This document shows, piece by piece, positions 14,181 to 54,057 of a stretch of DNA of 54,057 nucleotides. Under the pieces are notes generated by a model, which worked only from the letters and a program-made list of their open reading frames with translations, made no database searches and had not been told where the DNA came from. Made by a program: the position numbers and the translations under genes. This stretch comes from a virus. The DNA lies in IMG/VR virus record IMGVR_UViG_3300048930_000256, positions 1 to 54,057 of that record; one strand, given 5' to 3'. The number at the start of each line of letters is the position of its first letter. Positions within the stretch are counted from its first letter, which is position 1.

Positions 14181-14192
14181 ATTGACCCCCTA

Positions 14193-14870: not shown

Positions 14871-14899
14871 TATCTTTCCCCCTAGAAAGCATATTTGGC

Positions 14900-14923
14900 T
14901 TCATTCAGAGTATAGCCGTGAAT
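14900..14923 (-). promoter_or_regulatory. Putative late promoter, copy 2
   Basis: On the minus strand this reads ATTC-N5-TATACTCTGAA-T-GAA. It matches the element at 19118-19141 in 19 of 24 positions and ends 29 bp before the next start codon, against 32 bp for the other. TATACT could be a -10 box. No TTGACA-like -35 is present at 16-18 bp, so a non-host sigma factor may be used. Confidence 0.6.
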
Positions 14924-14929
14924 GATGGG

Positions 14930-15277: not shown

Positions 15278-15278
15278 G

Positions 15279-15494
15279 CTACTCCTGTCCTAGTATGGTT
15301 TCGCCGATGCTTCGAGCGCTGTAGCCAGTTCTATGTGCAAATAGCCTAGGAACGGGCACAACCACTACATGATGCCCCTCATTGGCATTAGCGTGGATTT
15401 CCTTTGTCGCTTCTGCTACAGCAGCATCTCTTTGCCGCATAGCAACCTCGCCACATTGAGCGCACAGCGTATCGTAAAAAGCTATTTGAGACAT
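15279..15494 (-). CDS. Small late protein, unknown function
   Basis: The ATG at 15492-15494 overlaps the TAA of the preceding gene as TAATG and has GGAGGG four bases upstream, so I prefer it to a TTG 15 bases earlier. The 71-residue product has a CAQC motif near the N-terminus and a GHHVVVVPVPRLF segment. No family is recognised. Confidence 0.65.
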   Translation of the reverse strand: MSQIAFYDTLCAQCGEVAMRQRDAAVAEATKEIHANANEGHHVVVVPVPRLFAHRTGYSARSIGETILGQE

Positions 15495-16666
15495 TAGACC
15501 CTCCACCAAGCGCCCTGCGCTCCGACGAGTTTTACAGACTCATACGGAGTGAGTCCGATATTAATTGTTAAAGCGTTGTCAATCAATGATGCGTCGATGG
15601 TATCAACAGTGACAGTACCTGTAGCGCCATTAACCTCTTTGAGAATTACAACATCTCCGTCGCCGCTGACCTCTGGTATTGTGATTGTGAACGGAGCGGC
15701 GGCAGCGTCATACAAAACAATTGTGCCAGCATCAGTAAGAACCGTGTTGGCAGACACTACGCCTTCTACATTGTAGATTACCCGCTCTGGAAGCTCTATT
15801 GCTGGGGAGGCGGCAAGTTCATCGATGGCAGCCTGAACGTCATCTGCAACAAGACCGCTGACAACATTGCTATAGCGCAGGGCAGATGCGTCTGTAAAGA
15901 ACTGGTCAAATACTCCTCCGCCCATCTGCGGCTGAAGTATGCCCTCATTTAGATTGATAACAACACTCTGGATGAGGCGAACAAGTGTTGTTGCAGAGCT
16001 TACAAAAACATCATCAGCAAGGCTCGGTGTGTTGCCGCTCATGCTGTATGCAAGGAATCCAGCAAACCCGTCTTCTATTTCAACAACGGGGACGCCTCCG
16101 TATATTCCAACCTGAGTTGTGCTTGCTATTGCCGAGCCATCGGTGACGCCTATGACAAAAAATGAAGTTGTATTTGGAACAAATATAAATGGAGCGTTCG
16201 TGCTGGATATAGCACTGGCCCTTGCAATTGCGATAACCGTGTTCTCTGCAATGTAAATAGGAGAGCTGCTGCTAGACCAGAAAATGATGCCCTGCGTAAT
16301 AACGCAGTTCACCATGCTTGTTATAGTCACACCATCAGTGAACTCGACCGGCATACTGAACGGGTTGCCGTTGCCAAGGAATGTGATATTGCTGAAATCC
16401 CACGCACCGGCAGGAACAGTCTCTGGCTGTTCGATAAGCACAGACTTCGGCCCTTCCACAAGAGCCATCGCGTCAAACATGTCCTGCCAGTTGTTATACC
16501 TGTTGCCCTGCTGTGTGCCAGAAGAGTTATAGATATATGTGACGTATGGGGCGCTTCCCCAAACCGCATCGCCATTCGTATCAGTGATGAGTATTTGTAG
16601 CGGGTCTCCGCCTTCAGGAAGCCCGCCTCCGCCGTTAGAACAGGAGCATGGAGGAACAACAGCCAT
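15494..16666 (-). CDS. Fibre-like protein within the head module
   Basis: 390 residues from the ATG at 16666, which has AGGGGG upstream; a GTG codon just before is possible. The N-terminus is PPCSCSNGGGGLP, then a long beta-rich, Ser/Thr/Ile-rich body that resembles a beta-helix. A GLVADDVQAAIDEL segment (about 270-285) is a motif common in phage tail fibres. The C-terminus forms a small beta domain. Placed between capsid and tail genes, it may be a head fibre or capsid spike; a tail fibre placed out of order is the alternative. Confidence 0.7.
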   Translation of the reverse strand: MAVVPPCSCSNGGGGLPEGGDPLQILITDTNGDAVWGSAPYVTYIYNSSGTQQGNRYNNWQDMFDAMALVEGPKSVLIEQPETVPAGAWDFSNITFLGNGNPFSMPVEFTDGVTITSMVNCVITQGIIFWSSSSSPIYIAENTVIAIARASAISSTNAPFIFVPNTTSFFVIGVTDGSAIASTTQVGIYGGVPVVEIEDGFAGFLAYSMSGNTPSLADDVFVSSATTLVRLIQSVVINLNEGILQPQMGGGVFDQFFTDASALRYSNVVSGLVADDVQAAIDELAASPAIELPERVIYNVEGVVSANTVLTDAGTIVLYDAAAAPFTITIPEVSGDGDVVILKEVNGATGTVTVDTIDASLIDNALTINIGLTPYESVKLVGAQGAWWRV

Positions 16667-16675
16667 CACAACCCC

Positions 16676-17461
16676 CTAACAAAGCTCAGTGAGAATTGCG
16701 AAGGAGCAGCAAGGGTCGAACCTAAGAATAGCGAGCCTTTCAAGAAGGACAATCTGCTCATTCTGGATATGCTCAAAATTAGCGATGTCGAACTGCTCGG
16801 CAACCGCATACTCCACTGGTCCGGTAGCATACAAATATGCCTGCCCATCAGTAGGCTCTGCGCCGCCAGTAGGAGCCTCGTTCGGGTAATCATCAACGAT
16901 GAGCTTGTGCCCACCGATACGATACCCCTCGCCGTCAAACTTTACCAAATCATTCTTCATCAAGAATGGGAGCGCCACTCTAGGGGCGTGAATCCAAACT
17001 CCTCCGCCGCCGCAATCATCAGATGCAGAGAGTAGGCCAGCAACGCTACCAGCAATACAAGCAGGAGTGTCAGGCGTAATATCAGTAGCAGACGAAACAA
17101 TGTCTGGGTTTCCAACATTCACATCAGAGAGAACAAGTTCATGCGCAAGTGAGCGGGAAAGCCCACGGGTCAAAGCGTTCTGCGCAAGCAGACGAAGCTC
17201 TGCCTCATCAGGAGCGCCGCTACAACGAAAACCGCTATATATGAGGAATGGGTCGAACTCTGTCGGCTCACCCTTATCAATGATGTTCTGCTTGTCCTCC
17301 CCATACGAACAGCCCCAGCGGTCAGCGCCGCCACAGCTAGGCGTAAAGGTCACACCACCAGACCAGTCGTATCCCGACGGTAGCTCCCGAGCGGCATCAG
17401 CGAGACCGCCCGGGGCTACGTCAGGAAGAATAGGTGGAAGGTACTTGTTAGTGACAGTCAC
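16676..17461 (-). CDS. Head-module structural protein, unknown function
   Basis: 261 residues from a GTG. It follows the capsid gene by 13 bp. Visible segments include TEFDPFLIYSGFRCSG, a helical AELRLLAQNALTRGLSRSLAHEL, and a C-terminal helix pair ending AILTELC. Eight cysteines are present. Position suggests a capsid-associated or connector protein. I do not recognise a family. Confidence 0.7.
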   Translation of the reverse strand: MTVTNKYLPPILPDVAPGGLADAARELPSGYDWSGGVTFTPSCGGADRWGCSYGEDKQNIIDKGEPTEFDPFLIYSGFRCSGAPDEAELRLLAQNALTRGLSRSLAHELVLSDVNVGNPDIVSSATDITPDTPACIAGSVAGLLSASDDCGGGGVWIHAPRVALPFLMKNDLVKFDGEGYRIGGHKLIVDDYPNEAPTGGAEPTDGQAYLYATGPVEYAVAEQFDIANFEHIQNEQIVLLERLAILRFDPCCSFAILTELC

Positions 17462-17474
17462 CTAAGAACCGCCC

Positions 17475-19085
17475 TTAGCAAGCTTCTGGCTCTACGAGAG
17501 CTGTTGAGCCGCCAGTACCAGCGCCTGTGAGTTCGAGTGTGAAGCTCGGCACTTCTGGAACCATCTTCTCAAGGAACTCATGTCCTTCAAGGAAGTATTG
17601 CACTTGGTTCTGGAGAGTAAGAGCCGCGTCACGCTGGAAGCCAGCCTCAACAAGAACGCTCTCGCCTCGTGTGTACGCATTGACAGGAACGATGTTAAGC
17701 GTCCATGTGCCGATTGCGGTACAAGGGTCGAAGGCTACAGTGCTGCCCGGGTCTACATAGAGACCAGCAGCGGCAAGATAGTCAGCTTCTGCGGTGACAT
17801 CGGCATCCATTGCCTGTACGATTTGACCAACGCCAAGCTCTCGGAGCTGTGCTTCGATTGCAGCGCGGTTAGCGCCACGAGAGAAGCCGCGTCGATGTTC
17901 GTCAGCGATAAGCGCTTCCATCATTCCGGGAGGAAGGATGAGAGCGTAGTCGCCCCAGTTGATGCGGGTGCCGTAGCCTGCAACAGCCACAAGATGACCG
18001 AGTACAGCTTCAAGCTGGTTAAGCAGGCCAACGCCGTTGCCAAGGCCATAGGTAAGAACCGTGCTGTCTGCGCGAAGCGTGTTGAGCAGTTCTTGCTCTG
18101 CGGTTCGTGCGTACACGATTCCAAGCTTTGTGATGAAGTCATCAATAAGCTCTGGATGGCTGATTTGCTGGAAGATAGAATGGCGACCAGCAGCAACGAT
18201 TGCGTATGGGTCTACCTGTGTTGGCTCTTGGCAGGTAAGGTCTACATACGGCTTCCATGTTGATGGCGTGTCAGCTTCAACAGCAGCTTGGTCTACACAC
18301 GTCCACTTGGTCACGCCGGCAGCTACGTCTGCGAGCGCAAGGCCCTTGACATAGTTGAATGGACCTTGTACTGGAACAGCGCGGAAGAGGCTGGCAACAG
18401 GGCGAGCATCTTCACCAACAGAGCGAATTGTCTTGTCAGTCTCGAACGGGCCGCAATAACAAGCTGCTTGGATTGGCGATGCAAGAACAGCACCTTTCTC
18501 TGCTGCCTGCGACATGATGATTGTGTTCTCAATCGCGCTGTTGCGACCAGATACAATCTTCTGCCCAGCAATCTCTCGGTTGATGTTAGCGAATGAATAC
18601 CGCCCATCACCACTCTTAGAAGCTAGTCGGTGAACTCGCTCCCAGTCAGAGACTTCCATCTTCGAGCCGACGCTCATTCCGTAAGACGAGCTGGAAGCAA
18701 TGATTGTCAATGCTGGACCTTCGCCACCGCCATCGAGGTTCTGCTTTTTTGGTGCAGCGCTCTGCACGGCAGCAGCAATCGCCTCTGGCTCTGGGGTTTC
18801 GGCTGGTGCCTCTTCCTTAGCTGGCTCTTCAGCAGGAGCTTCAACTTCAGCAGGAGCTTCCACTTCTTCAGCGGGAGCCTCTTCTTCAGCAGCCTTTGGA
18901 GCTTCTGGAGCTTCAGCGGTCAGCTCTGCTACGAGCTTTGCGTCTTCAATCTTTGCTTCGAGTGCGATGCGCTCATCTCGAAGTGCGCGAAGCTCTGCTC
19001 GCCCATCTTCATCGATAACGTCTAGCTTGGCGATTTCACCAGCTCGCGCTCGGATTTCTTCCATTCGTTTTAGTAGCTCTTCCAC
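17475..19085 (-). CDS. Major capsid protein, HK97-type with scaffold-like N-terminus
   Basis: 536 residues from a GTG with GGGGAG upstream. Residues about 1-50 form a coiled coil like an HK97 delta domain, followed by an Ala/Glu/Pro-rich linker (about 55-115) and a capsid domain (about 130-520) with ASLFRAVPVQGPFNYVKG and ILPPGMMEALIADEHRR. Such N-terminal parts guide prohead assembly and are usually removed by the protease encoded upstream. A promoter-like element lies 32 bp before the start. Six cysteines are present. Confidence 0.93.
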   Translation of the reverse strand: MEELLKRMEEIRARAGEIAKLDVIDEDGRAELRALRDERIALEAKIEDAKLVAELTAEAPEAPKAAEEEAPAEEVEAPAEVEAPAEEPAKEEAPAETPEPEAIAAAVQSAAPKKQNLDGGGEGPALTIIASSSSYGMSVGSKMEVSDWERVHRLASKSGDGRYSFANINREIAGQKIVSGRNSAIENTIIMSQAAEKGAVLASPIQAACYCGPFETDKTIRSVGEDARPVASLFRAVPVQGPFNYVKGLALADVAAGVTKWTCVDQAAVEADTPSTWKPYVDLTCQEPTQVDPYAIVAAGRHSIFQQISHPELIDDFITKLGIVYARTAEQELLNTLRADSTVLTYGLGNGVGLLNQLEAVLGHLVAVAGYGTRINWGDYALILPPGMMEALIADEHRRGFSRGANRAAIEAQLRELGVGQIVQAMDADVTAEADYLAAAGLYVDPGSTVAFDPCTAIGTWTLNIVPVNAYTRGESVLVEAGFQRDAALTLQNQVQYFLEGHEFLEKMVPEVPSFTLELTGAGTGGSTALVEPEAC

Positions 19086-19117
19086 CGAAGTCTCCCCTTT
19101 TGTTTACGGCGTTGCGA

Positions 19118-19141
19118 TTCGTTCAGAGTATAAGCACGAAT
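19118..19141 (-). promoter_or_regulatory. Putative late promoter, copy 1
   Basis: This lies in a 72-bp gap before the capsid gene. On the minus strand it reads ATTC-N5-TATACTCTGAA-C-GAA and is nearly identical to 14900-14923. The conserved core is TATACTCTGAA, and both copies keep ATTC five bases before TATACT and GAA at the end. This sharing suggests an independent promoter for the most abundant virion proteins. Confidence 0.6.
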
Positions 19142-19157
19142 CTTTTATCGTTGTTGT

Positions 19158-20411
19158 TTATTCGGACAAAATAGCAGCGGTTCGCGCAGCGACAAGAGTG
19201 GCGACAGCTTCCTCTAGCGCGGCGATACGAACAACAGCATCGTCAATCTTTGCCATTACAGCTTCGTCCATGCCACCTTCTTTTCCGCCCATATCGGCAG
19301 AAGCGGTAATGTTGGCACCATCACAGTCACAGGCTGAAGCTTCAACCTTTCCGCATGGGCACTTCTCTTCCGCTTTTTGACAGTCGCATGGCGCAGAGCC
19401 ACAAGTTGTTTCTGGCATGGTATCCCCCTGTTGCTTTTCAGTCACAGCATACATCGCAAGTATATTGCCATTAACATCCATAGCGGTAGCTGCAATGGAA
19501 CCTTTTTCTGCGCGGGTCATGACCCCTTCGGCCCATGACTGTCCAGCATCTCCACCCCACAGCTCCCACGCTACTTCACCCGGAGTCGGCTTATCGTCTT
19601 CACGGTTCTTTGCCGAGCGGTCTACGCTGTGCCGAGCAAACCATGCCCGCATACGGGTCAGCTTGTCTAGCGATTGCTTCTCGCCAGAAGCCATGCTCTT
19701 CGCTTCTGATACAGTCTTTGGCCTAAGCCCAGCCCCAGAGTGCCCCTCTTCGTGCCATTTAAGTCCACGCTTTACGGCTTCGACAACGCCAGCCGGCGGT
19801 GAGAATGTTTCTCCAGAGCTGATACTCGCAGCTATGTTCTGCATCTGCCCGCTTGTCAGTGACACGTCGCCAGCGTTCGCCATCGGATAGCCGGGAATGT
19901 TCACGAAGCAGGCTCCAGCAAAGTCATAGCCGGATTCGCTTTCTCGCCACGAGCCTAGCCACCTCCAGTCGCCAGAGATGGGACTTGCGCGAATCTTTGC
20001 AATATCGAGTTCGTTCACGTCTGGCCAGAGTGCGCCGGCAAACCATAATCCCTTATCATCTTCGCCATAGCGAACCCGCATTAGCTGGGTATTGGTATTC
20101 TCATAGAATGATGGGACAGCAGCGTTCGCCTCATCAAGCGATGCGTGTCCAGCACCGCCACCGATATTCGCTGTGGCAATTATCGTTCCGTCTTCCAGCT
20201 CTGTCTCGCCTTGATGCGCGTAGCCGTAATCAGACGGAGAACCCTTTGGTGGGCGTAGGCAACCTTCGAGTCCAGAGTGGCACGTATCCCATAACGCTAT
20301 GTATCCATAGACTCGGCCATCTGCGGTGATTGTGATGCGGCGGTCTGTTGGTATCTCTTCTGGTGGAGAGAACCATTCGGCTGGTGGTTTGATTGGGATA
20401 TCCATACCCAT
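19158..20411 (-). CDS. Capsid maturation protease with C-terminal extension
   Basis: 417 residues. Residues about 25-180 match actinophage prohead proteases (VYGYIALWDTCHSGLEG with His near 45, GHASLDEA with His near 89, RASPISGDWRWLG). A second domain (about 205-300) carries RMRAWFARHSVD and PGEVAWELWGGDAGQSWAE, a pattern found in several phage head proteins. A Cys-rich segment of about 30 residues (CDCQKAEEKCPCG) and a C-terminal helix follow. It should cleave capsid scaffold regions. A C-G-rich 100-bp gap (20412-20511) separates it from the portal gene and holds G-runs but no clear gene. Confidence 0.88.
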   Translation of the reverse strand: MGMDIPIKPPAEWFSPPEEIPTDRRITITADGRVYGYIALWDTCHSGLEGCLRPPKGSPSDYGYAHQGETELEDGTIIATANIGGGAGHASLDEANAAVPSFYENTNTQLMRVRYGEDDKGLWFAGALWPDVNELDIAKIRASPISGDWRWLGSWRESESGYDFAGACFVNIPGYPMANAGDVSLTSGQMQNIAASISSGETFSPPAGVVEAVKRGLKWHEEGHSGAGLRPKTVSEAKSMASGEKQSLDKLTRMRAWFARHSVDRSAKNREDDKPTPGEVAWELWGGDAGQSWAEGVMTRAEKGSIAATAMDVNGNILAMYAVTEKQQGDTMPETTCGSAPCDCQKAEEKCPCGKVEASACDCDGANITASADMGGKEGGMDEAVMAKIDDAVVRIAALEEAVATLVAARTAAILSE

Positions 20412-38348: not shown

Positions 38349-39632
38349 ATGTCAGAAAGCGCACGGGCGATAATAGCGCAAGCAATAAAGGGTGATAGAG
38401 ACACGAGCTTATTGGTTGGAAGCATAGAGCCATCTTGGATAGAAGACCAGCATTGTTATGCAATCATCTCAACAATAATAGACCTGTCTATATCTGGCAA
38501 ACCTATAACGCCAAAGACAATAGCATCGCGCATAGCAGGTGTCATAGATAGAAAAGAGTGCGCCTCGCTATTCTCATCGCAGGCGGCAGTAAAGGAATAT
38601 GTTGAGTCGTGCGAGAATCCAGACGGCTCGCGCATAGAATCGCACATAGAGCAAATCAAGCTCGACTACACAAGGTCTTCAATAATTGCTGGCGCCAAGA
38701 GGGTGGTAGATAGCCTGCCAAAATACCAGACAGCAGAAGAAGCTGCATCAAGCTCGATAGAAATAATGGCTTCAGGCATGACCTCAACCATTGGTGACGG
38801 TGGCGCTGTCGATAGCATGAAGGCAATTGACTCTTGGCTAAAGAGCAGGGAGGAAGCGTCGTTCATTAGGTCGTGGGACTTCCCTTTCCAGACATGGCAG
38901 AAGCGGGCGAAGTTCAAGCAGAGTGAGATACTTGTCTTTGCAGCTCCATCAGAAAGCGGGAAGAGCTGGTTCGGCGACCAGATGCTAGAGCGCGGCTGCA
39001 AGTCAGGCTCTCGCGTTGCACTGTTCACTGGCGAGATGACGCCAGAAGAGCATATAGAGCGGCTAGTAAAGATGGGCGGGTATAGTAGTGACGAGCTTGA
39101 TTCTGACAGGGCGAAGAGGCGGCTGGCAGATATAGCCTCGTGGGACTTCACTATCTATGATGGCCTAATAACCATAGATAGGATTCGCGCTGCATGTGTT
39201 CGTGCAAGAGCCATAGGCAGGCCGTATCACATGGTCATCGTAGACCACGTACACCTTATGGCCTTCGAGGGTAAGAATGGGTACAGAATAGCCCTAAACG
39301 ATGCGATGTCTATATTCAAGGGCGAGATAGCTAACAAGGAAAAGTGTGGCGTTGTATTACTATGCCAATTGAGGAAGCCGGAAAACTCAGACCCATCAAG
39401 GCGGCCACGCAAGAGTGACATCAGGGAGAGTGCGGCAATAGAGAATATCGCTGACTGGATATTCCTCATGGCTCGCAACAATGATGACGATGTTGATAGC
39501 ACAGAAAGCACTATATGGTGTGACAAGCGTAGGGGCGGCAGAAGGTTCCCGACTATCGGTGTGGAAATACACCCTAAGTTAAACCGGCTTGTAGAGATAC
39601 CAGCGGGGTTCGCGCCGACAATGATTGTTTGA
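38349..39632 (+). CDS. DnaB-like replicative helicase
   Basis: 427 residues with AAGGGA upstream. The N-terminal helical domain (about 1-110) is followed by a RecA-type ATPase domain: Walker A APSESGKS (199-206), FTGEM (226-230) with catalytic Glu 229, Walker B MVIVDH (295-300), and CQLRKP for the sensor region. It unwinds DNA at the replication fork. SSB follows. No primase or polymerase gene is seen, so the host is likely to supply them. Confidence 0.9.
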   Translation: MSESARAIIAQAIKGDRDTSLLVGSIEPSWIEDQHCYAIISTIIDLSISGKPITPKTIASRIAGVIDRKECASLFSSQAAVKEYVESCENPDGSRIESHIEQIKLDYTRSSIIAGAKRVVDSLPKYQTAEEAASSSIEIMASGMTSTIGDGGAVDSMKAIDSWLKSREEASFIRSWDFPFQTWQKRAKFKQSEILVFAAPSESGKSWFGDQMLERGCKSGSRVALFTGEMTPEEHIERLVKMGGYSSDELDSDRAKRRLADIASWDFTIYDGLITIDRIRAACVRARAIGRPYHMVIVDHVHLMAFEGKNGYRIALNDAMSIFKGEIANKEKCGVVLLCQLRKPENSDPSRRPRKSDIRESAAIENIADWIFLMARNNDDDVDSTESTIWCDKRRGGRRFPTIGVEIHPKLNRLVEIPAGFAPTMIV

Positions 39633-42977: not shown

Positions 42978-43280
42978 ATGGTACGGGATATGAACGACAG
43001 CGGCAAGATACCAGAAGAATGGTATCCACATATAACAGAGGCAATCAGTAGGTCTACTGGCCTAAAGCCAACTGGAGGGAACCAAGTGAAAGAGCCTAGC
43101 GATATACCAACAATGGCTTTGCTTAATGTAATAGGCGAGCATGAAATGAAAATAGAGAAGCTGGAAAGTCGCGTTTCGATTATTTCGTTTAGAGCGAATT
43201 TTGCCTACGGGATATTCGTAGTAATCATTATGCTGCTTGTTGTTTCTCAGATATTAAACTTGGTGGAGGCTTGGCTGTAG
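42978..43280 (+). CDS. Membrane-anchored protein, unknown function
   Basis: 100 residues from the ATG at 42978; a longer frame from 42906 would read through the hairpin. A helical polar part is followed by a single hydrophobic segment (FVVIIMLLVVSQIL) near the C-terminus. It overlaps the sigma factor gene by 10 bp, so a membrane-linked regulator of the sigma factor is possible but unproven. Confidence 0.6.
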   Translation: MVRDMNDSGKIPEEWYPHITEAISRSTGLKPTGGNQVKEPSDIPTMALLNVIGEHEMKIEKLESRVSIISFRANFAYGIFVVIIMLLVVSQILNLVEAWL

Positions 43281-43999
43281 CGCATACCCCAGACGACGCG
43301 CAGCAGTACAGGAAAATACTTCAAGGCGATACCAAGGCTAGAGATAGGATGGTTGAAAAGCATCTTGGTCTAGTAAAGAAAAATGTTGTCTACTATGCTA
43401 GACGCAATCCAGAGATACCACTAGACGACCTCCTGCAAGAGGGGCATATAGGTCTAGTCATGGCGCTCAACAAGTTCGATGTAGACAAGGGGTACAGGTT
43501 TTCTACATACGCATCATTCTGGATTAAGCAAAGGATACAGCGGTTCGTTGTATTCAGCCATCCAAAGTCAGCTACAGCTAAACGCAAGGACATAGAAGAC
43601 TTCATCAATGGAAGAATGAGCGAAGAGCTGAAGCCGCTCTATAGCAATCGGTGCGGCTCATACTCGCCAATAGACTCGCCTGTGAGTAGGTCTGGAGAAA
43701 GTGGACTAGACTCAAACAAGGCAAGCAGTATAGCTGAAATGGCTTACGATGCCTGTCAGATGGAAGTGTCAGAGCTTGTAGAGGACAAGGATGAATGGAG
43801 GCACATGCGCTCCGTCATGATGGATGTCCTAGACCTTAGGGAGCTAACAATCATAGGTATGCGTTTCGGTGTGATGGGATGCACACAGAAAAAGATTGCA
43901 GACATAGCAGATGAGCTTGATATAACCATTGCCAGCCTAAGAAGCATTGAGGCTGTTGCTATGAAGAAGATTCGTGATGAGCTTGGAGTAGAATCATGA
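43271..43999 (+). CDS. Sigma-70-family RNA polymerase sigma factor
   Basis: 242 residues from a TTG after GGTGGAGG (short spacing). Region 2 (about 27-95) is clear: LVKKNVVYYARRNPEIPLDDLLQEG, then NKFDVDKGYRFSTYASFWIKQRIQRF. Region 4 (about 188-238) has a helix-turn-helix (TQKKIADIADELDITIASLRSIE). It should redirect host RNA polymerase to phage promoters. It lies before the endonuclease and terminase genes. The 24-bp element before the capsid and tail tube genes is the best target candidate. Confidence 0.9.
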   Translation: MAVAHTPDDAQQYRKILQGDTKARDRMVEKHLGLVKKNVVYYARRNPEIPLDDLLQEGHIGLVMALNKFDVDKGYRFSTYASFWIKQRIQRFVVFSHPKSATAKRKDIEDFINGRMSEELKPLYSNRCGSYSPIDSPVSRSGESGLDSNKASSIAEMAYDACQMEVSELVEDKDEWRHMRSVMMDVLDLRELTIIGMRFGVMGCTQKKIADIADELDITIASLRSIEAVAMKKIRDELGVES

Positions 44000-45036: not shown

Positions 45037-45560
45037 GCGAAGAGATAATCCACACAAAACAGACGCCATCATATAGCCGTAGGCCAGATGAGCCAGCGTC
45101 AGACTACGAGGCTTTTGTTGAGTGGTGCAGGATTCCACCATCAAGCAGGTCTACTGGAAACTTCTGTAGGCGAACAGGGTTCCCGCAGAAGGCTGTGAAA
45201 AGGATGCGTGAGAAGTGGCAATGGGATGCTAGGGCGGCAGCGTTCGACGCTGATAGCGTAGCCCTGCGGCCAGACCCTGCATCGATGGAAGAAGAGGCGG
45301 CGCTCGCCGGACAGATTGCTGCTGCAACCACGCTTATCGAGCTTGGCCTACGCTCTATCGAGCTGAAGAACCCATCGCTCATATCGGCAGACAAGGCGCT
45401 AAAGCTTGTAGAGAAGGGCGTGGAGATTCAGCGCAAGGCGCTCGGTCAGGCAGATGTCAATATAGAATTCTCCTCTGGCGACCTAAGCAGGGTGAACAAG
45501 CTTATAGAAGACCTAAACATAGAAGACGCAGAACTGGTAGACGAGGAGCTTGAAGAATAA
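45033..45560 (+). CDS. Terminase small subunit
   Basis: 175 residues. FCRRTGFPQKAVKRMREKWQWDARAAAFDAD (about 48-78) is the helix-turn-helix and Trp-containing pattern of small terminases, followed by a long helix (EEEAALAGQIAAATTLIELG) for oligomerisation and an acidic C-terminus. It recognises phage DNA for packaging. Its last bases overlap the start of the large subunit. Confidence 0.8.
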   Translation: MSEEIIHTKQTPSYSRRPDEPASDYEAFVEWCRIPPSSRSTGNFCRRTGFPQKAVKRMREKWQWDARAAAFDADSVALRPDPASMEEEAALAGQIAAATTLIELGLRSIELKNPSLISADKALKLVEKGVEIQRKALGQADVNIEFSSGDLSRVNKLIEDLNIEDAELVDEELEE

Positions 45561-47973
45561 GATAACAGCAGCCCAGTATGCAAAGCTGAGTGCTGCGGAG
45601 CGCTTGGCATTTTGTGGTGCGCTTGCAAGGAAGAGATGGGAGAAGCTTAGAAGGCCAGAACAAGTTCCGGGTATGTATCACCAAGATACATGGGTCACTC
45701 ACCTAACAATGGCTGGGAGAGGGTTCGGGAAAGAGCTTGCGCTTGATACGCCCATACTAACTGCAAATCGCGGCTGGATAACCATGGGTGATATTGAGGT
45801 TGGAGATGTTGTCTTCGACGAGTCTGGCGCTGAGTGTAATGTGACATTCGTTAGCGAGCCTACAAATGCCAAGCCGATGTTCCGACTCAACTTCTCGGAT
45901 GGCTCCAGCCTAGTAGCTTCAGACACGCATGAATGGCTAACGTCCAGCGCGTTAGAGCGTAAGGCTTCCAGAAGAAATGGCGGCGAGCTGAGGGCTACTG
46001 TTAGAGAAACTATTGAGCTGTATGCAACGCAAAAGCATGGGAGCAGGGGCGACACAAATCATTCCATACAGCTCTGCAAGCCAATTGTGTTCTCTCAAAT
46101 ACAGGAGTTAAAGGTAGACCCATACATGCTAGGCGTTTGGCTCGGTGATGGCGCCAGTAAGGAGAGGGTTTTACACCTCTCCAACAGGGATGAGTCATAC
46201 ATAGTATCTGGTATTGATTGCATAGAGAATGGCTTTAGAAAGCAATACAATGGATATGCCAAATATAGGATAGAGATGGATACATGGCAGGCGATGCGGT
46301 CGCATGGCCTTTCTGGGAACAAGCATATACCTCGCCAGTTTATGTCTGCTACTGTTGCCGAGCGAAAGTCTCTCCTTGCTGGGATTATAGACACCGATGG
46401 AACAATCAGCACTAAATCCGCCTGTGAAATAACACTTTGCAATGAGAGGCTTGCGCATGATGTTCACGAGCTTATCATCGGGCTTGGCATAAAGGCTGTT
46501 ATCAAGAAAAGCGCGGCGACGCTAAACGGGAAGACTGTTGGCGACAGGTGGAGGATAACATTCACCATCTATACAGGACACGAGATACCAGTTCGCTCAT
46601 CATTCAAGGCTGGAAGAATTAAGCCGGCTGGTAAGCAATCCACTCGGCAGGCGCACAGAATGATACGAAGTGTTGTGAGAACAGCCAATGTCCCATGTAG
46701 GTGTATTAGCGTAGATTCTCCATCAAGACTGTATCTTGCCGGCAGGCACCTTATTCCAACGCATAACACCCGTGCAGGCGCGGAATGGATTTTGAATGAG
46801 TGTATAAGTATGCCCGGAACTATGGCAGGCATACTAGCTCCAACATACGACCACGGCATAAAGGTCTGCTTATTCGGAGAGAGCGGCGTTATGTCACTAC
46901 TGGCTGACCACTCGACAGTAAAGTGGAATGAGTATAAGAAGCAGCTCACTTTTGCGAATGGAAGTATGATAACGCTCTACTCTTCAGAGCATCAGAAGAA
47001 CCTTGCAGGACCGCAGTTCCACAGGTTCTGGATTGATGAGCCGGCAGACCTAGCGCACGGCATGAGAGCATGGAAGAAGCTTAGGCCGGCGGTCAGACTA
47101 CCCACGATAGACGGCTCGCCGGCACGAATCCTCATCACGGGTACGCCGGCACCAGTCCCGCTTGTGCAGCATATCTGGGAGCTTACACAGAAGAACCCAG
47201 AGATTTACACGCTGTCTAATGGTCGCACGATGGATAACGAGGCCAACCTCGACCCAATGATGGTTCAGGAATTGTATGAGCGATACAAGGGCAGCAGATA
47301 CTTCCTTCAGGAGATGGAGGGGCAGCTACTCTTGCAAGCTGACGGCGCCCTATGGACATCGCAGGTTATACATGGGAACACGATACCGTATGACAAGGCG
47401 ATGCACTTCGATGAAGTTGTTGTTTCAATCGACCCAGCGGTATCAACTGAGAAACATGCTGACGAGACTGGCATCATCGTTGCTGGTATATCCGAGAAGA
47501 ATTGCTACATACTTGCAGACTATTCAGTTAAGGCCAGTGCCTTAGATTGGATTCGCAAGGCGTACTCCATAGCGCAAAAGCATGGCGCAAGAAAGATACT
47601 CTATGAGCGCAACCTAGCCGGGCCTATGATAGAGGACGTATTCAAGAAGGTTTTGCAAGAACACAACTCAAAGATTAAGCTAGTAAAGGTGCAGGCTAGG
47701 AAGTCTAAGGGTGTTAGGGCGGAACCTATTGCTGCGCTGTATGAGGCGGGTAGGGTGTTCCATGTGAGTGACACTCCAGACTCATGGGGGTCACTTGAAA
47801 AGCTAGAGTCGCAGATGACTACGTGGGAGCCTAAAGACTCTAAAAGCCCAGACAGGATAGACGCTCTTGTTCACGCCGTAAACTACCTTCTGGTCAAAGG
47901 AGCTGGAGGAGCTAGGGTCTACACGTCGAAGGACATCAAGACGAACATAACGATGACTGGCTGGAATAAGTGA
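45550..47973 (+). CDS. Terminase large subunit interrupted by an intein
   Basis: 807 codons from a TTG overlapping the small subunit by 11 bp. The host protein is split: AGRGFGK (55-61) and T407 RAGAEW join to a Walker A motif, then FWIDEP (493-498) is the Walker B region, TGTPAP is motif III, and a nuclease domain has VVVSIDPA (623-630), DETG and a final DRIDALVHAV (768-777). An in-frame intein (62-406) lies within the P-loop. After removal the mature terminase is about 462 residues. It powers DNA packaging and cuts the genome. Confidence 0.93.
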   Translation: MKNKITAAQYAKLSAAERLAFCGALARKRWEKLRRPEQVPGMYHQDTWVTHLTMAGRGFGKELALDTPILTANRGWITMGDIEVGDVVFDESGAECNVTFVSEPTNAKPMFRLNFSDGSSLVASDTHEWLTSSALERKASRRNGGELRATVRETIELYATQKHGSRGDTNHSIQLCKPIVFSQIQELKVDPYMLGVWLGDGASKERVLHLSNRDESYIVSGIDCIENGFRKQYNGYAKYRIEMDTWQAMRSHGLSGNKHIPRQFMSATVAERKSLLAGIIDTDGTISTKSACEITLCNERLAHDVHELIIGLGIKAVIKKSAATLNGKTVGDRWRITFTIYTGHEIPVRSSFKAGRIKPAGKQSTRQAHRMIRSVVRTANVPCRCISVDSPSRLYLAGRHLIPTHNTRAGAEWILNECISMPGTMAGILAPTYDHGIKVCLFGESGVMSLLADHSTVKWNEYKKQLTFANGSMITLYSSEHQKNLAGPQFHRFWIDEPADLAHGMRAWKKLRPAVRLPTIDGSPARILITGTPAPVPLVQHIWELTQKNPEIYTLSNGRTMDNEANLDPMMVQELYERYKGSRYFLQEMEGQLLLQADGALWTSQVIHGNTIPYDKAMHFDEVVVSIDPAVSTEKHADETGIIVAGISEKNCYILADYSVKASALDWIRKAYSIAQKHGARKILYERNLAGPMIEDVFKKVLQEHNSKIKLVKVQARKSKGVRAEPIAALYEAGRVFHVSDTPDSWGSLEKLESQMTTWEPKDSKSPDRIDALVHAVNYLLVKGAGGARVYTSKDIKTNITMTGWNK
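45733..46767 (+). other. Intein with LAGLIDADG endonuclease in terminase P-loop
   Basis: Residues 62-406 of the terminase. It starts with Glu instead of Cys or Ser (ELALDTPIL), ends in LIPTHN, and the next extein residue is Thr. The three residues diagnostic of class 3 inteins appear: W129 in DTHEW (block B), C385 in CRCISVD (block F) and T404 in PTHN (block G). The middle has the DOD/LAGLIDADG pair LGVWLGDG (194-201) and LAGIIDTDGT (276-285), so a homing endonuclease is present and both acidic residues are retained. Confidence 0.88.
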
Positions 47974-47985
47974 TAGGGTAATCTC

Positions 47986-48405
47986 ATGACCAACTTATTA
48001 GTGATATTGATTATTCTCGGAATTGGTACAGCTCGGATTACAGCGCTGCTTGCCAAAGACAAAATCTTCCACGGTCTTAGAGAGTTCATTTTCTACCGCT
48101 CTCCACCAGAAGACAATGACATGCTTGGCTACTACTATCAGGCGTATCACAAGGTCAGCAAAGAAGAGGCAGCTAAGAAACATTCACCGTGGCACAGTAA
48201 GAGGTATATCTGGAATAAGGATGGCGACGTGCGTAAAGAGGGATTCTTTGGCGCACTCTTTTCTTGCACTCGCTGCCTATCCGTATGGGTAGCTCTATTC
48301 AATTACCTTGCTTTCACCATCGAGCCTGTCTATACTATTTACTTCAATGTAGTAATGGGTATGTCATTCATATCTTCAGCAGCAATAGAAAGGTACTACA
48401 GATAA
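47986..48405 (+). CDS. DUF1360-like membrane protein
   Basis: 139 residues. An N-terminal hydrophobic helix (LLVILIILGIGTARITALLA), a basic polar middle and a GALFSCTRCLSVWVALF then FNVVMGMSFISSAA end match DUF1360-type proteins often found in actinophages. The function is unknown. It follows the terminase by 12 bp. Confidence 0.75.
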   Translation: MTNLLVILIILGIGTARITALLAKDKIFHGLREFIFYRSPPEDNDMLGYYYQAYHKVSKEEAAKKHSPWHSKRYIWNKDGDVRKEGFFGALFSCTRCLSVWVALFNYLAFTIEPVYTIYFNVVMGMSFISSAAIERYYR

Positions 48406-48653
48406 TGAGCAACATCATTCGTAGCGTTCGCGTTAGGCATCCAAAGGCTCCAGAGTTCGAGATAGCTATTGGCGTACAGTCAAGGCCAAAGAGACTGTCT
48501 GACCTAGAAGCAGACACTGAGATGGAGCGCTACCCAGTTGTAGAGTTTTGGTATCACAATGGCGATGCAATGCCAGTCGGCTCGATGCGCCTAGAAAACT
48601 TCAATGAGCTTGTCGAAGAGGTTGCCAAGATAGGCAGCCGCATCATGCCATGA
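48405..48653 (+). CDS. Protein of unknown function
   Basis: 82 residues from an ATG overlapping the previous stop (TAATG). Basic N-terminus (IIRSVRVRHPKAPEFEIAIG) and an acidic end (NELVEEVAKIGSR). No family is recognised. A longer in-frame ORF upstream is rejected because it overlaps a real gene. Confidence 0.65.
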   Translation: MSNIIRSVRVRHPKAPEFEIAIGVQSRPKRLSDLEADTEMERYPVVEFWYHNGDAMPVGSMRLENFNELVEEVAKIGSRIMP

Positions 48654-48892
48654 CAGAGAGCTGCCGCACATGCGGCCAGCACAGGTGGTCATTCGATGGA
48701 TATTGCCTATCAGTGAAATGCGCTGGCAGCTATAAGCATCCAAACTGGCCAAAGACAAAACCAGCCAACATTGCTGAAGAGCAGGCTGGAGCATTAGAAG
48801 TAAAGAGGCCGCGAAGCAAAAGGCTGCGCAGAGAAGCGGAAGCCTACTACGCATCAAAGGGCAAGGTCGCCCCGTGGCTGCTAGGAGATTGA
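48650..48892 (+). CDS. Small zinc-motif protein
   Basis: 80 residues. N-terminal CRTCGQHRWSFDGYCLSVKC could be a zinc site. The remainder is basic and proline-rich (KRPRSKRLRREAEAYY). Coupled by ATGA. Function unknown. Confidence 0.65.
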   Translation: MTESCRTCGQHRWSFDGYCLSVKCAGSYKHPNWPKTKPANIAEEQAGALEVKRPRSKRLRREAEAYYASKGKVAPWLLGD

Positions 48893-48893
48893 T

Positions 48894-49112
48894 ATGCAAT
48901 TACAAGAACACGATATTCACGGATTTCCAAATCATAAGCAGTTCGGTTTCCCAGATGAGGAGCTGTTTGGAGTCATGACATACTCTGGATACAACATAAT
49001 CCATGACGGCATTGGATATATGGGCGTGTGCGATAAGCATAGGTCGCGCTACTACTCAACAATCGAAGAGTGCGTAGCGTTCATCGACGGATTTCTTTTG
49101 AAGAATGGCTAA
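48894..49112 (+). CDS. Small protein, unknown function
   Basis: 72 residues with GGAG upstream. His/Phe/Asp-rich N-terminus (HDIHGFPNHKQFGFPDEELF) and a small beta domain. No family is recognised. A 71-bp gap follows before the secreted protein gene. Confidence 0.6.
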   Translation: MQLQEHDIHGFPNHKQFGFPDEELFGVMTYSGYNIIHDGIGYMGVCDKHRSRYYSTIEECVAFIDGFLLKNG

Positions 49113-49183
49113 AGTTTTCTGGATTCGTGCCGATAATCATAATACAGGCGGAAATATACTTGTTCAAATGATAATCGGGGGTA

Positions 49184-50140
49184 ATGATGAAATTCAGAAA
49201 TACAGCAATTCTGCTGGCTATTACAGGTCAGCTTGCTTTCTCTGGCACAGCAGCCGCAAACCAAGGGCAATTCCCTAGGCCATACGGCACGTTCTGCAAT
49301 ACAGCTCCAACGGTTGCGCATATCTGCGCCAATGTAGACGACTCATTCTCATACAAGCAGACAGCGGTTGATGCCACTGGTAGGGGATGGGGCTACCTAC
49401 GAACACACACTGGACAGCACACTCTGCACCACGACGGCTGCTACTACGTCTACAAGAGTATGCAGCAATGGTACTCAATGGGTTCACCAGTAGGCTCTAG
49501 GAATTGCGTGTATGTTGGCGGCCACTATGTAGACCACGTTCTATTCAAGTATATGTTCAATGACATACCAGCACAGGACATAGATGACTTCGTTCCATCC
49601 GAGCAGGTAATCATAGCGCAGCTTGTATCAGGTGGGCAAGTGATACAAGCAAATGTTGGCGTAAGCAAATCTAGTGGGACGAGCCTGAAAAGGTATTGTG
49701 AGTTCTATAGCGTCAGAAGCTGGATGACATCGCTTGGTAATCACATGAAAGAAGTTGCCTTAGATAGGACGCCGGATAGTATCATGCAGGCTTGCGGCTT
49801 CAAGCTTCGCTACAAGGACGCGCCAAAGAATGAGCCAGAGGACGGTTCAGGCTCATCAGACTCTAGCTCTTCACCAGAAGAAGAGACTGGCCAAGTAGTA
49901 GTTCCGGCAAACTCTAAGAAGTGCGGCACGGCTGGCCTAAAGAAAAAGCGTGTGGCTGTTCGCTCTACAAGCCTGAACTGCCGAGCGTCAAAGAATGTCA
50001 TCTCTTCTTACGCTAGGTCGTACAAGTCTCCAAAGGGATGGAGCTGTAGAGCAACGATTAGCGACAAGGGTGTTAGGGCGAAATGTGTTCGCAAATCTAA
50101 GAAGAGCAGGGTCGCTGCTTACGGGATATGGAGAAGGTGA
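49184..50140 (+). CDS. Secreted protein of unknown function
   Basis: 318 residues after GGGGGT. A signal peptide (about 1-25, FRNTAILLAITGQLAF then AAA) shows export. The body has Cys and His-rich, Tyr-rich segments (HHDGCYYVYKSM, CVYVGGHYVDHVL) and an acidic/Ser-rich linker (EDGSGSSDSSSSPEEE) before a basic C-terminal domain with four cysteines (KKCGTAGLKKKR, WSCRATIS). It is the last plus-strand gene and overlaps the opposite-strand phosphoesterase by 22 bp. A role outside the cytoplasm, such as cell-surface modification or superinfection exclusion, is possible. Confidence 0.75.
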   Translation: MMKFRNTAILLAITGQLAFSGTAAANQGQFPRPYGTFCNTAPTVAHICANVDDSFSYKQTAVDATGRGWGYLRTHTGQHTLHHDGCYYVYKSMQQWYSMGSPVGSRNCVYVGGHYVDHVLFKYMFNDIPAQDIDDFVPSEQVIIAQLVSGGQVIQANVGVSKSSGTSLKRYCEFYSVRSWMTSLGNHMKEVALDRTPDSIMQACGFKLRYKDAPKNEPEDGSGSSDSSSSPEEETGQVVVPANSKKCGTAGLKKKRVAVRSTSLNCRASKNVISSYARSYKSPKGWSCRATISDKGVRAKCVRKSKKSRVAAYGIWRR

Positions 50141-51057
50141 TTTGGCGCTGGGGATAGCATTGGTAAGTAGGGGACGCCATCAGACAAAAGCATATACCCC
50201 GGAGTCCACTTAGGGAATGTCGTAGTATATTGCCTAAGGTATGCTGTCTTGGCGTCATCGAACAAGCCGCCAAGCTCTACGCACCAGTGCTGTCCCCCTT
50301 TGTTCCTGCCAATAGCATGGTGATGCCTATGCCCAGCAGCAATGTGCATCTGGTGAATATCGCATAGCTCACGAGGAACAGTCAAAGGAATCTTGCTGTA
50401 TTGATTTGTGTGGCAGATATACCAAGTGCCAACCCCGCTCTCGACTAGAGCGTAGTCAAGGCCCGTCACATGTATCTTACTGAGGTCTTCTGCCGTCATG
50501 TCTGGCAAGAGCATCTTCACAGTCTGCTCAAAGCGAAGCCTGTACCCGAGTGACTCCATCACTCTATTGTCGTGATTACCTTTTGTGATAATTATTTTCT
50601 TGAACACTCGCAGCATAATCTCTAGTATCCGCTGGGCGTGAACCATCTCCACTTCCATGCCGGCGCCGGCCTGCTTAGGCGAGTACCTTGATAGGGCGTC
50701 TAGGTTGAATAGGTCTCCTGCTATGATTAGCCAATCCGTGCAGCCGAAGCGCATGGCATCGTCAATCATTTTCGCGGCGACTTCGTGCGAGATAAGCGGA
50801 ATATGCCAGTCTGAGCTGACTAGGCCACGTCCTCTTAGCACTATCTCCTGCATTGTTGATAGAGGCTCTACTGGATGCGGAAGTTCCAGCATCTCCAGTG
50901 CAACTTTGTTCAGCTCGCTTTTCTTGAATTTCTGAACTTGCCTCTGTATGGTTCGTTCGTGGAATCCGTGGTGATTCGCAATTGCCTTTGCATTTCCGTG
51001 AATTGCAAGCTCCTTGGCAATCCACTCCTTGTTCAAGTAAGGTTTCTTTGCGCTCAA
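50119..51057 (-). CDS. Metallophosphoesterase with N-terminal helix-turn-helix
   Basis: 312 residues from a TTG after GGGGGAG. A HTH (KAIANHHGFHERTIQRQVQKF, about 22-43) leads to a calcineurin-like metallophosphoesterase: SDWH (82-85), AGDLFN (113-118), GNHDNR (160-165) and GHRHH (242-246), the metal ligands of the family. The target is unknown; nucleic acid is possible given the HTH. It is the last gene of the late transcription unit. Confidence 0.9.
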   Translation of the reverse strand: MSAKKPYLNKEWIAKELAIHGNAKAIANHHGFHERTIQRQVQKFKKSELNKVALEMLELPHPVEPLSTMQEIVLRGRGLVSSDWHIPLISHEVAAKMIDDAMRFGCTDWLIIAGDLFNLDALSRYSPKQAGAGMEVEMVHAQRILEIMLRVFKKIIITKGNHDNRVMESLGYRLRFEQTVKMLLPDMTAEDLSKIHVTGLDYALVESGVGTWYICHTNQYSKIPLTVPRELCDIHQMHIAAGHRHHHAIGRNKGGQHWCVELGGLFDDAKTAYLRQYTTTFPKWTPGYMLLSDGVPYLPMLSPAPNHLLHIP

Positions 51058-51148
51058 CTCGGCTCCCCCTGCCGTCGCTTGCTATGACCTTTTGTGTGTG
51101 GCGACTAACCCTGCCAGCAGACTTTCTTCCCATAGTAAGGCGTATGCA

Positions 51149-51364
51149 CTATCCCTTACTTATGTATGTTGAAAGCATGAGTATAAGAATAGACTGTGTA
51201 ATCCCGTACACAAGTAGGGCGGCTTTGCCCCACGTAGAAACCGATGTCATAAACTTTGTGACCTCAGTATTGAATGTCTGCTGCTCTTTGGCCGCAACAG
51301 CCATCGTTTTCACGGCATCTTCAAGCTCGCTAATCCTATGCTCTATAATGCTCTGATTAGACAT
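51149..51364 (-). CDS. Small membrane protein, holin or spanin-like
   Basis: 71 residues. A coiled-coil-like N-terminal part (RISELEDAVKTMAVAAKEQQ) is followed by one hydrophobic helix at the C-terminus (AALLVYGITQSILILML). ATG overlaps the endolysin stop (TAATG). Its position next to the endolysin suggests a holin-type or spanin-like lysis role. Confidence 0.65.
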   Translation of the reverse strand: MSNQSIIEHRISELEDAVKTMAVAAKEQQTFNTEVTKFMTSVSTWGKAALLVYGITQSILILMLSTYISKG

Positions 51365-51927
51365 TATCGTAGCTTTCGTACAAACGCCTCGACTTGGCTG
51401 AGGCTCCGCTCTCTGCGCATAACCTTGCCGCCATTGTCATTGCTTGATAGTGAAGTGTTTCCCTCGATTGCGTAGAAGGTTCCAGCCTTCTTGTTAATCC
51501 ACTTCTCAAAAAGTCCAACGTGGTCTGCTGCTCCGCCATCAAAGTCGAAAGCTACTGCGTCACCTTCGCGCACCCTGTCTCGATGCACAATAGAAAGCCG
51601 GTGCTTCTTCTGTTTAGCTAGGCTGACAAGCTCTGGAACGTAATCAATCTTCAGTGCAAGCTCGCGTGGAATGTCGTGCCCAGCTTTGCGCCACCAAGAA
51701 GCAACGGCCATACCGCACCACGGTACGCCGTCTTGTCGCCACTCGCGGCCATACTTTGTCTTATTAGAACCAGCAGGGCTTTCAGAGTATCCCAAATCCT
51801 TCTTAGCAATCTCGATAGAGCGCTTTCCTAGAGCGCGGGCAGACATATCTCGCCAAGCCCTCTTGTATTTTGGCTTCGGCTTTCCAGTAGCCTTCCAAAC
51901 TTGAATCCATCTAGGTAGCTTTGGCAT
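51364..51927 (-). CDS. CHAP-domain endolysin
   Basis: 187 residues. The CHAP amidase/peptidase motif is complete: Cys 71 (PWCGMAVASWW), His 136 (ADHVGLFEKW) and the downstream YAIEGNTS (Glu/Asn near 155-157). The N-terminal 30 residues are basic and could bind the wall. It cleaves peptidoglycan to release progeny. No separate cell-wall-binding domain is seen. It lies between two membrane proteins, as expected for a lysis cassette. Confidence 0.9.
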   Translation of the reverse strand: MPKLPRWIQVWKATGKPKPKYKRAWRDMSARALGKRSIEIAKKDLGYSESPAGSNKTKYGREWRQDGVPWCGMAVASWWRKAGHDIPRELALKIDYVPELVSLAKQKKHRLSIVHRDRVREGDAVAFDFDGGAADHVGLFEKWINKKAGTFYAIEGNTSLSSNDNGGKVMRRERSLSQVEAFVRKLR

Positions 51928-52154
51928 TACTCTGTTCCATCCATTTCTTCGTAGTAGGTATCAGAAACCCGCATAGCTTCGTCGAAGCCGCCGGGTTTAT
52001 CTCTAAACGCTCCAAGGATATAGCTGGCCATACCAGCGACAATCATCTGCGCAAGACTATGGGTATCTTCTGGAGCGAAGACAAGCATCACAGCTCCGAC
52101 AATGAGCGTGATTACTGCTAATACTATGTCGATAGGCTTTCTCATGCTAACCAT
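51927..52154 (-). CDS. Putative holin
   Basis: 75 residues with two hydrophobic segments (IDIVLAVITLIVGAVMLVF and MIVAGMASYILGAF) and a charged C-terminus (FRDKPGGFDEAMR). The order small two-TM protein followed by endolysin is typical of holins. An in-frame ATG three codons later is a possible dual start. The assignment is from topology and position. Confidence 0.65.
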   Translation of the reverse strand: MVSMRKPIDIVLAVITLIVGAVMLVFAPEDTHSLAQMIVAGMASYILGAFRDKPGGFDEAMRVSDTYYEEMDGTE

Positions 52155-52163
52155 AGCCTAACC

Positions 52164-53264
52164 CTAAGTCTTGATGATTTTATTGACGACCGTAAAGGGC
52201 TGCATAATCGAGAACTGGTTTCCTGTAGGATTGCCGTTGCCACCAGATGTAGGAACGGTGACTCCAGAGCTTGCGCTGTTTATAGTGACTGTGTGCGAGT
52301 GCGAGCCATTGGATGATGTCAGTTCGTTGTTGAGCTGCTGCTTGTTTGTACCAGAACCGCTAACAACTATAGAGTGCTGGTCTCCAAGGTCAAGCTGCTG
52401 CACTGTTGGCCCGCCAGATGAGCCTGCTACCCACCTTGTCACACCTTCTGGCACTGTGGTATTAACACTTCTGTTGGTAAGCGTAGCAGTTGTAGCTGTC
52501 ACAAATGACCGTCCAGATGTTCCAGTGCCGTGCGTGTGGTCTGGAGTCGTGCTGACAGAGTTGGTATGCGTATGCCCAGCGTCTGTCACGGTATGGCTAT
52601 GTGCTGGCAGGTTGCCAACATCAAGCTCAACGAACTCTTGGCCAGAAATGTATCCCAAATCATCAGGGTTAGACAAGACGCCGGCATCTCCAGCCGGAGT
52701 TCCCATATCGTCAAGGCCAACGCTTACCCTACCGCGAAGGTCTGGTAGCTGGAACATACCGCCGCCGGGGTCTACGCCGCCGCTACCATTGTGCCCAATG
52801 ACAGCAAAGAGTGTTGAGTATGTAGCCTGACTAACAAGCGAGCCATCGCAGGCCAAGAAGCCTACTGGAGCATTGTCTGCAAAGAAGTCGATGATAGCGC
52901 CGGTTGGCAGGTCTCCACCAGAGGCGGGTATAAGACCGATGCTTAGTCCGTCTGGCCCTACATTGATGGGCACTGGGCTTGCTGGGTCTATCTTCACTTC
53001 AGCAGATATACCGCCAGAGCTAATCTGCATATCAACACTGTCAGAGTCCTCGATATTTACATTCAGCTCTGGGCTGTGGCCATACGGTCCTCCCGGAGTA
53101 ATGTCTATCGCGCCATCGGTGTTTGTTGCCGAGAAGATTGTCTCTTGAACTGTAAGTGTCCAGCCGCCACTAAGCGGGTCTCCGTTCCCTGACAGCGTGG
53201 CAAGCTCTTCCGGCTCAACCTGTAGCTGGCATGAACACTGGTCAAAGCAGCCGCACAAAGACAT
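52164..53264 (-). CDS. Tail collar/fibre protein
   Basis: 366 residues. The N-terminus has four cysteines (MSLCGCFDQCSC). A tail collar domain follows (about 122-190): PTGAIIDFFADNAPVGFLACDGS, TYSTLFAVIG, MFQLPDLRGRVSVGLD. The C-terminal half has GHTHTN, HSHT and SHSHTVT motifs, like the metal-binding histidines of phage receptor-binding tips. It probably forms part of a host-contacting fibre. Its ATG overlaps the previous stop (TAATG). Confidence 0.85.
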   Translation of the reverse strand: MSLCGCFDQCSCQLQVEPEELATLSGNGDPLSGGWTLTVQETIFSATNTDGAIDITPGGPYGHSPELNVNIEDSDSVDMQISSGGISAEVKIDPASPVPINVGPDGLSIGLIPASGGDLPTGAIIDFFADNAPVGFLACDGSLVSQATYSTLFAVIGHNGSGGVDPGGGMFQLPDLRGRVSVGLDDMGTPAGDAGVLSNPDDLGYISGQEFVELDVGNLPAHSHTVTDAGHTHTNSVSTTPDHTHGTGTSGRSFVTATTATLTNRSVNTTVPEGVTRWVAGSSGGPTVQQLDLGDQHSIVVSGSGTNKQQLNNELTSSNGSHSHTVTINSASSGVTVPTSGGNGNPTGNQFSIMQPFTVVNKIIKT

Positions 53265-54057
53265 TAGATTACTTCTCCGTTGTATGGCATGAATACTACT
53301 GTTCCGTCTACCTTAAAGCCTCGTTCGGTGAATCCGCCCGGCTGGTCTACAGTAATAAGATTGAGCGACTGGTTTGTTCCAACGTGCGATGCGATAGCAT
53401 TGAAGGACAATGTAGCGCCGCCAGCAACTTCGCCGATAATAATAGCCTCTTCCCAGCGTCGCTTATGGTGCGGGAGCCTGCTGTTTCTTTGTATGCCGCC
53501 AATATCCATAAACGTGCGGAGCGTTCCAACCCCGCCAAGTAGGTTGTTTACTGTCATCTGACAGTCAATGTGAGCGTTGAATGGTATGAACGCATTACCC
53601 TGTGTGACAGAATCTTCAGGGTTGTTATTGACATCATCAACCCACGCTCTAACAGCTCTCTGAGCAGAAGACAGGTTGTTGTCTCCTAGAATCGGGCTGA
53701 CAGAATCGTATGGAGAGATAAGGTCAAATCCAGAGCCATTACCAAAAGAGCTTCCGGGCGGCACAAAGCCGACACTGTATCCAACCCTAAATCGAGCTTT
53801 GATAATAGTAAGGCAGCGGCAAGAGTGCGGGTTTGTAATAGTGACCCCGTTTAGCGCGTTTGCACTAGCATCGCCCTCTGATGTACCCTGCGGTATATTA
53901 ATTGCATCGCCAGAATCAAAGAGCTTCCACCTAGCCCGCTTTGGGATGCTATACAGCTCACCGCCAGTAGAAAGCCCGAGCTGCTGAAAACAAGAATCTA
54001 TCGGTGTTGCTGCTGCTGGGTCGTCCCAAATCTTTGCTGCAATTCCTTGGCCGTCTA
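53264..54057 (-). CDS. Virion-associated protein, 3' part of the gene crossing the join
   Basis: This continues the frame that starts at 239; the final 127 bases repeat the start of the window. The full protein is 301 residues after closing the circle. The body is beta-rich with no recognised domain (segments SGFDLISPYDSVSP, NAHIDCQMTVNNLLGGVGTLR). Its end overlaps the tail collar gene start, so it probably takes part in the same tail structure. Confidence 0.8.
   Translation of the reverse strand, partial: DGQGIAAKIWDDPAAATPIDSCFQQLGLSTGGELYSIPKRARWKLFDSGDAINIPQGTSEGDASANALNGVTITNPHSCRCLTIIKARFRVGYSVGFVPPGSSFGNGSGFDLISPYDSVSPILGDNNLSSAQRAVRAWVDDVNNNPEDSVTQGNAFIPFNAHIDCQMTVNNLLGGVGTLRTFMDIGGIQRNSRLPHHKRRWEEAIIIGEVAGGATLSFNAIASHVGTNQSLNLITVDQPGGFTERGFKVDGTVVFMPYNGEVI
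53931..54057. repeat. Terminal direct repeat, right copy
   Basis: Identical to 1-127. Together the two copies show a circular map of 53,930 bp. Confidence 0.95.

Follow-up and report, generated by a model that had tools for sequence, protein, structure and literature searches.

A probable class 3 intein with a glutamate at position 1 in the Walker A motif of a phage terminase large subunit

The DNA analysed here (the window) is the 54,057-nucleotide IMG/VR virus record IMGVR_UViG_3300048930_000256. It carries a direct terminal repeat of 127 bases (positions 1-127 and 53931-54057), so the record is probably a complete phage genome, circular or terminally redundant. The gene for the terminase large subunit is located on the plus strand at 45550-47973, and encodes 807 amino acids from a predicted TTG start, with no internal stop. 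Both enzymatic domains of a terminase large subunit are recognized by Pfam, the ATPase at residues 407-603 (Terminase_6N, 4.9e-9) and the RNase H-like nuclease at residues 626-779 (Terminase_6C, 4.6e-13), and a homing endonuclease is found at residues 260-341. The identified tail, major head and portal-like genes are located far from the terminase, at 934-20411 on the minus strand. A phage-encoded sigma-70-like factor lies a little upstream of it (43271-43999; Sigma70_r2, 6.7e-13, and r4, 8.4e-6). The predicted major head protein (17475-19085) gave no match by tblastn against 50,697 phage records.

The terminase reading frame is interrupted by an intein of 345 residues (residues 62-406 of the precursor; 45733-46767, plus strand), which we assign to class 3. 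The N-extein (45550-45732, plus strand) contributes 61 residues and ends in GRGFGK (LTMAGRGFGK), while the C-extein (46768-47973, plus strand) begins with the Thr of the Walker A motif at position +1 (TRAGAEWI) and contains the remainder of the ATPase and the nuclease domain (Terminase_6N and Terminase_6C). The intein is therefore positioned exactly between the Lys and Thr of Walker A (GRGFGK/TRAGAEW, with the slash indicating the junction). The two exteins, joined by a script, give a predicted splice product of 462 amino acids. Over the junction, this product shows no gap when aligned with terminases that lack an intein, from Dinoroseobacter phage R26L (35% identity, 9e-72) and from Curtobacterium phage Sunfish (35% identity, 2e-68). 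This empty-site alignment places the start of the intein at Glu and identifies the Walker A Thr as the +1 residue; an upstream Cys or Ser as the start was rejected for this reason. The original prediction had placed the intein between these two P-loop residues, starting at Glu, with a spliced product of about 462 residues, and the reading frame and the empty-site alignment agree with it to the base.

The intein region by itself is matched by several PHROGs families that are annotated as terminase large subunit (best phrog_36964, 9.8e-34), which suggests that some of the terminases in these families contain an insert of this kind. The same region also matches phrog_50 and phrog_510, whose annotations are helicase loader and primase. 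Viral contig scans with a single protein or with the C-extein found one locus each, and the one scan of genome contigs found a single relative, in Actinomadura. A nucleotide search of 46768-53000 among phages gave no match.

Class 3 inteins are defined by a Trp at B:12, a Cys at F:4 and a Thr at G:5, together with the lack of a nucleophile at position 1 (PMC3196547, PMC5050341 and PMC5222942), and a Ser or Thr at +1 is a stated trait of the class (PMC5222942). The first residue here is Glu1 (45733-45735), which is neither Cys, Ser nor Thr and is not nucleophilic. The Trp of block B is W129 (TGG, 45934-45936), located two residues after the His at B:10 (H127-E-W129). The Cys of block F is C385 (TGT, 46702-46704), the predicted initiating nucleophile. 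The intein ends in PTHN (T404, H405 and N406, at 46759-46767), with T404 at G:5, and is followed by Thr407 at +1. All of these codons are on the plus strand.

In a search that left out the window, the closest solved structures are two class 3 DnaB inteins, 6rix from Mycobacterium chimaera (E 8.1e-23) and 6bs8 from M. smegmatis (E 2.3e-19), with which the window intein shares its His, Trp, Cys, Thr, His and Asn residues one to one. The same catalytic columns (Trp, Cys and Thr, both His residues and the terminal Asn) are invariant in all 17 rows of an alignment in which the window intein is joined by 16 further members of the class, taken from phages, plasmids and one viral contig. They are likewise invariant in all 76 rows of a wider alignment, prepared for structure prediction with 75 relatives (plus-strand, near-copies excluded), and the block B His and Trp are found in 112/112 inteins. 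In three mini-inteins (L031, L041 and L045), the apparent gaps at Cys and Thr are produced by the alignment, as their letters end in PTHN with KCI before it. The 17-member profile, which includes the window, scores the terminase reading frame at 406 bits (E 7e-123) and matches no other part of the window below E = 1. The DnaB-like helicase of the window (38349-39632) has no intein in its P-loop, SESGKSW, a position at which class 3 inteins are found elsewhere. W129, C385 and the Thr of PTHN had been named as the class 3 residues in the original prediction, and the assignment has now gained support from the 6rix/6bs8 alignment, the conservation in both alignments, the profile and the predicted fold.

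An intein without a nucleophile at position 1 could also follow class 2-like chemistry, as class 2 inteins share this feature; the +1 Thr would then attack the N-terminal junction itself, leaving the block F Cys a bystander. Class 2 inteins lack the Trp-Cys-Thr triplet, however, whereas the window intein has this class 3-defining triplet in alignment with proven class 3 inteins, and three inteins of class 3 no longer spliced at all once their block F Cys was mutated (PMC5222942). We consider the chance of class 2-like splicing to be very slim.

Two features count against a plain class 3 reading: the uncommon Glu1 and a Ser at position 7 of block B in place of the usual Asp. The Asp is thought to assist (PMC6195587), and among the 112 inteins this position is Asp in 68, Gly in 16, Cys in 11, Ser in 10, His in 5, and Glu and Asn in one each. 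Both features could speak for an intein that has decayed and no longer splices, as in the Arth_1007 pseudogene of Arthrobacter FB24, with the terminase being dead or working in some other way. That pseudogene, however, has neither the Cys of block F nor the His of block B (PMC3196547), whereas the window intein has all its catalytic positions and endonuclease motifs intact and no stop interrupts either extein, which makes decay improbable.

The AlphaFold2 model of the intein, calculated from the 76-row alignment, has a pLDDT of 94.9 and a pTM of 0.93. With VIA-align, it can be superimposed on 6bs8 over 127 of 127 residues, with an rms distance of 1.5, a Z score of 20.6 and 40% identity, which identifies the Hint fold in the predicted structure. 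The overlay with PI-SceI (1vde), the yeast VMA intein, covers 323 residues (Z score 27.3, rms distance 3.2). The top families from Foldseek with this model are the same as those from VIA-align. The overall arrangement of Hint and LAGLIDADG domains is thus like that in PI-SceI, although the sequence identity is only 16-18% (PI-SceI rows) and the host of PI-SceI is a eukaryotic ATPase. PI-SceI splices by the class 1 pathway. In the model, the Hint splicing domain of the window intein is complete, with the LAGLIDADG endonuclease nested within it.

The endonuclease has two LAGLIDADG motifs with their acidic residues (Hom_end, 9.2e-8). The first is located in block C (PYMLGVWLGDG, 46120-46152, plus strand), with D139 in LGVWLGDG, and the second in block E (LLAGIIDTDG, 46372-46401, plus strand; Pfam Hom_end and LAGLIDADG_3), with D222 in LAGIIDTDG. 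Block D (NKHIPRQF, 46318-46341, plus strand) provides a conserved Lys. The window intein has intact forms of both motifs and of this Lys, all of which are conserved in the 17- and 76-row alignments, as the original prediction had anticipated for the endonuclease. This enzyme probably cleaves intein-free terminase alleles at the Lys/Thr codon pair.

The insert could in principle be a terminase-specific domain that is retained in the mature protein. We found no support for such a domain, and its precise insertion between the Lys and Thr of the P-loop, the final Asn, the Hint fold and the empty sites in relatives all argue against it, leaving it a negligible probability. The upstream start, class 2 chemistry, a pseudogene and a permanent domain were all rejected. 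We estimate a probability of about 0.93 that the Walker A site of this phage terminase large subunit holds a mobile intein of class 3.

The original prediction had singled out Glu at position 1 for comparison with known members. The comparison was made with the sequences gathered here rather than with InBase, and position 1 is variable among them. In the viral contig scan (82 inteins from the best 80 of 586 loci), this residue is Ala in 55, Gly in 8, Leu in 5, Arg in 4, Gln in 4, Asp in 2, Met in 2, Pro in 1, Cys in 1 and Glu in none, as assigned by profile alignment, with the assignment surely doubtful for L122 and perhaps for L048 and L079. A survey with the pattern GK/xLALDTP found at least 120 stretches, of which 119 were read; the 111 distinct ones all match the class 3 profile. 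Among these 111, position 1 is Ala in 88, Gln in 11, Gly in 7, Glu in 3, Arg in 1 and Ser in 1. A third pattern, targeted to Asp and Glu, found 25 stretches, including six loci whose class 3 inteins begin with Glu, five of which (L023, L024, L025, L028 and L029) form one group and the sixth (L033) another; the other stretches contain Asp1 inteins or unrelated proteins. The set of 112 inteins includes loci picked by the GK(D/E) pattern, and its counts for position 1 and for GK therefore describe an uneven sample.

These six inteins, from uncultured phages, share Glu1 and the Trp/Cys/Thr triplet with the window intein and are also located in the P-loop. Their site is Lys/Ser, however, with Ser rather than Thr at +1, and their Walker A contexts (KKNGK, KKCGK and SRVGK) differ from that of the window. 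Their host genes are unannotated and were named as terminases from the flanks and from similarity to other rows. Glu1 is thus uncommon, but at least two other groups of terminases provide precedents. No mention of Glu1 in class 3 terminase inteins was found in the literature searched, which was available in part; its absence there does not prove that it has gone unreported.

The block F region contains an extra Cys, C383 (46696-46698, plus strand), two residues before the catalytic Cys. The resulting Cys-x-Cys motif (C-R-C) is found in one of the 109 inteins compared, the three mini-inteins being left out of this count. In the DnaBi1 intein of M. smegmatis, oxidants convert the catalytic Cys to a disulfide and splicing stops (PMC6195587). 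By comparison with that intein, the motif could be a redox switch, which is a guess from one sequence. A scheme in which Glu1 and C383 would tie splicing to the redox state or the pH, with the packaging motor turned on only when C383 and C385 are reduced, seems quite unlikely.

Based on the proven class 3 inteins, C385 would attack the Lys61-Glu62 bond, in an active site shaped by His127, Trp129 and Thr404, and so produce a branched thioester. The N-extein would then be transferred to Thr407 at +1, cyclisation of Asn406 would release the intein, and an O-N shift would leave the joined exteins ...GRGFGKTRAGAEW... By this analogy, splicing would most likely restore the 462-residue terminase through the class 3 mechanism. 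With its ATP-binding loop split by 345 residues, the unspliced precursor is unlikely to be active as a packaging motor. An intein in the P-loop of RadA disrupts the ATPase function (cited in PMC6195587).

The class and the site are both well described, and class 3 inteins at the Lys/Thr position of phage terminases are abundant (PMC5050341, PMC7891396). Kelley et al. (2016) named the terminase P-loop site between the invariant Lys and Thr TerL1-a, a 'classic' P-loop insertion, and ranked terminases first among the intein hosts in mycobacteriophages (PMC5050341). Splicing has been shown for the terminase inteins TerL1-b, -c and -e, TerL6-f and Pham3880-g, all at other sites, and DNA cleavage by the endonuclease for those at TerL1-b and -c (PMC5050341). 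Hoffmann et al. (2020) collected 1701 class 3 inteins, 82.5% of which have LAGLIDADG motifs (PMC7891396). Among the 112 inteins compared here, some of them selected by a pattern that requires GK, the insertion site is GK/T in 46 and GK/S in 46.

The inteins of Mycobacterium phage Flypotenuse (L005), Clavibacter phage CMP1 (L006) and Escherichia phage kvi (L010) have the triplet, the Lys/Thr site and the LAGLIDADG endonuclease of the window intein. In our reading of their sequences against the site description in PMC5050341, TerL1-a includes class 3 inteins such as these. They contain 331-355 residues, compared to 345 in the window, and are 37%, 36% and 31% identical to it, respectively, with Ala or Asp at position 1 instead of Glu. 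The Mycobacterium DnaB inteins (M. chimaera DnaB1, 6rix/6riy, and M. smegmatis DnaBi1, 6bs8) have the same splicing domain and Trp, Cys, Thr and His positions, with 40% identity over about 130 residues, and DnaBi1 is likewise located in a P-loop. They differ in their host protein, DnaB, and are short chains without an endonuclease. None of the inteins compared is more than 41% identical to that of the window.

A quick tree (105 distinct sequences of the 112, with mini-inteins L031, L041 and L045 dropped) places the window intein apart from the same-site inteins of related terminases (L082 and L072; L107, L075 and L122), a pattern that would resemble several separate invasions. A tree that unites all six same-site inteins, missed by the quick search, is 132 log units higher (p-AU 0.999). 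Since this better tree holds the window intein and the other five together, independent invasions of this terminase family are not claimed.

Several of the terminases compared carry more than one intein. The L082 terminase (reading frame around 2788-6531) has two class 3 inteins with endonuclease, at the Lys/Thr of the P-loop and at EGE/S, and an apparent third element at Walker B, a small class 1-like Hint with a Cys start and a VHN end before CDE. The L107 terminase has a P-loop class 3 intein and an apparent class 1-like mini-intein at Walker B. Neither of the two class 3 inteins in the L117 terminase lies in the P-loop, and in the second of them Ser replaces the penultimate His. L031, L041 and L045 are class 3 mini-inteins of 137-141 residues without an endonuclease, at GRQ(V/I)GK/T, and L030 is a full-length form with the flank shared by these three.

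A working Glu1 class 3 intein would have modest engineering value if splicing were shown, as the first residue can limit use. For the family, the window intein is one diverged addition to a large known group, in which Glu at position 1 occurs at several loci.
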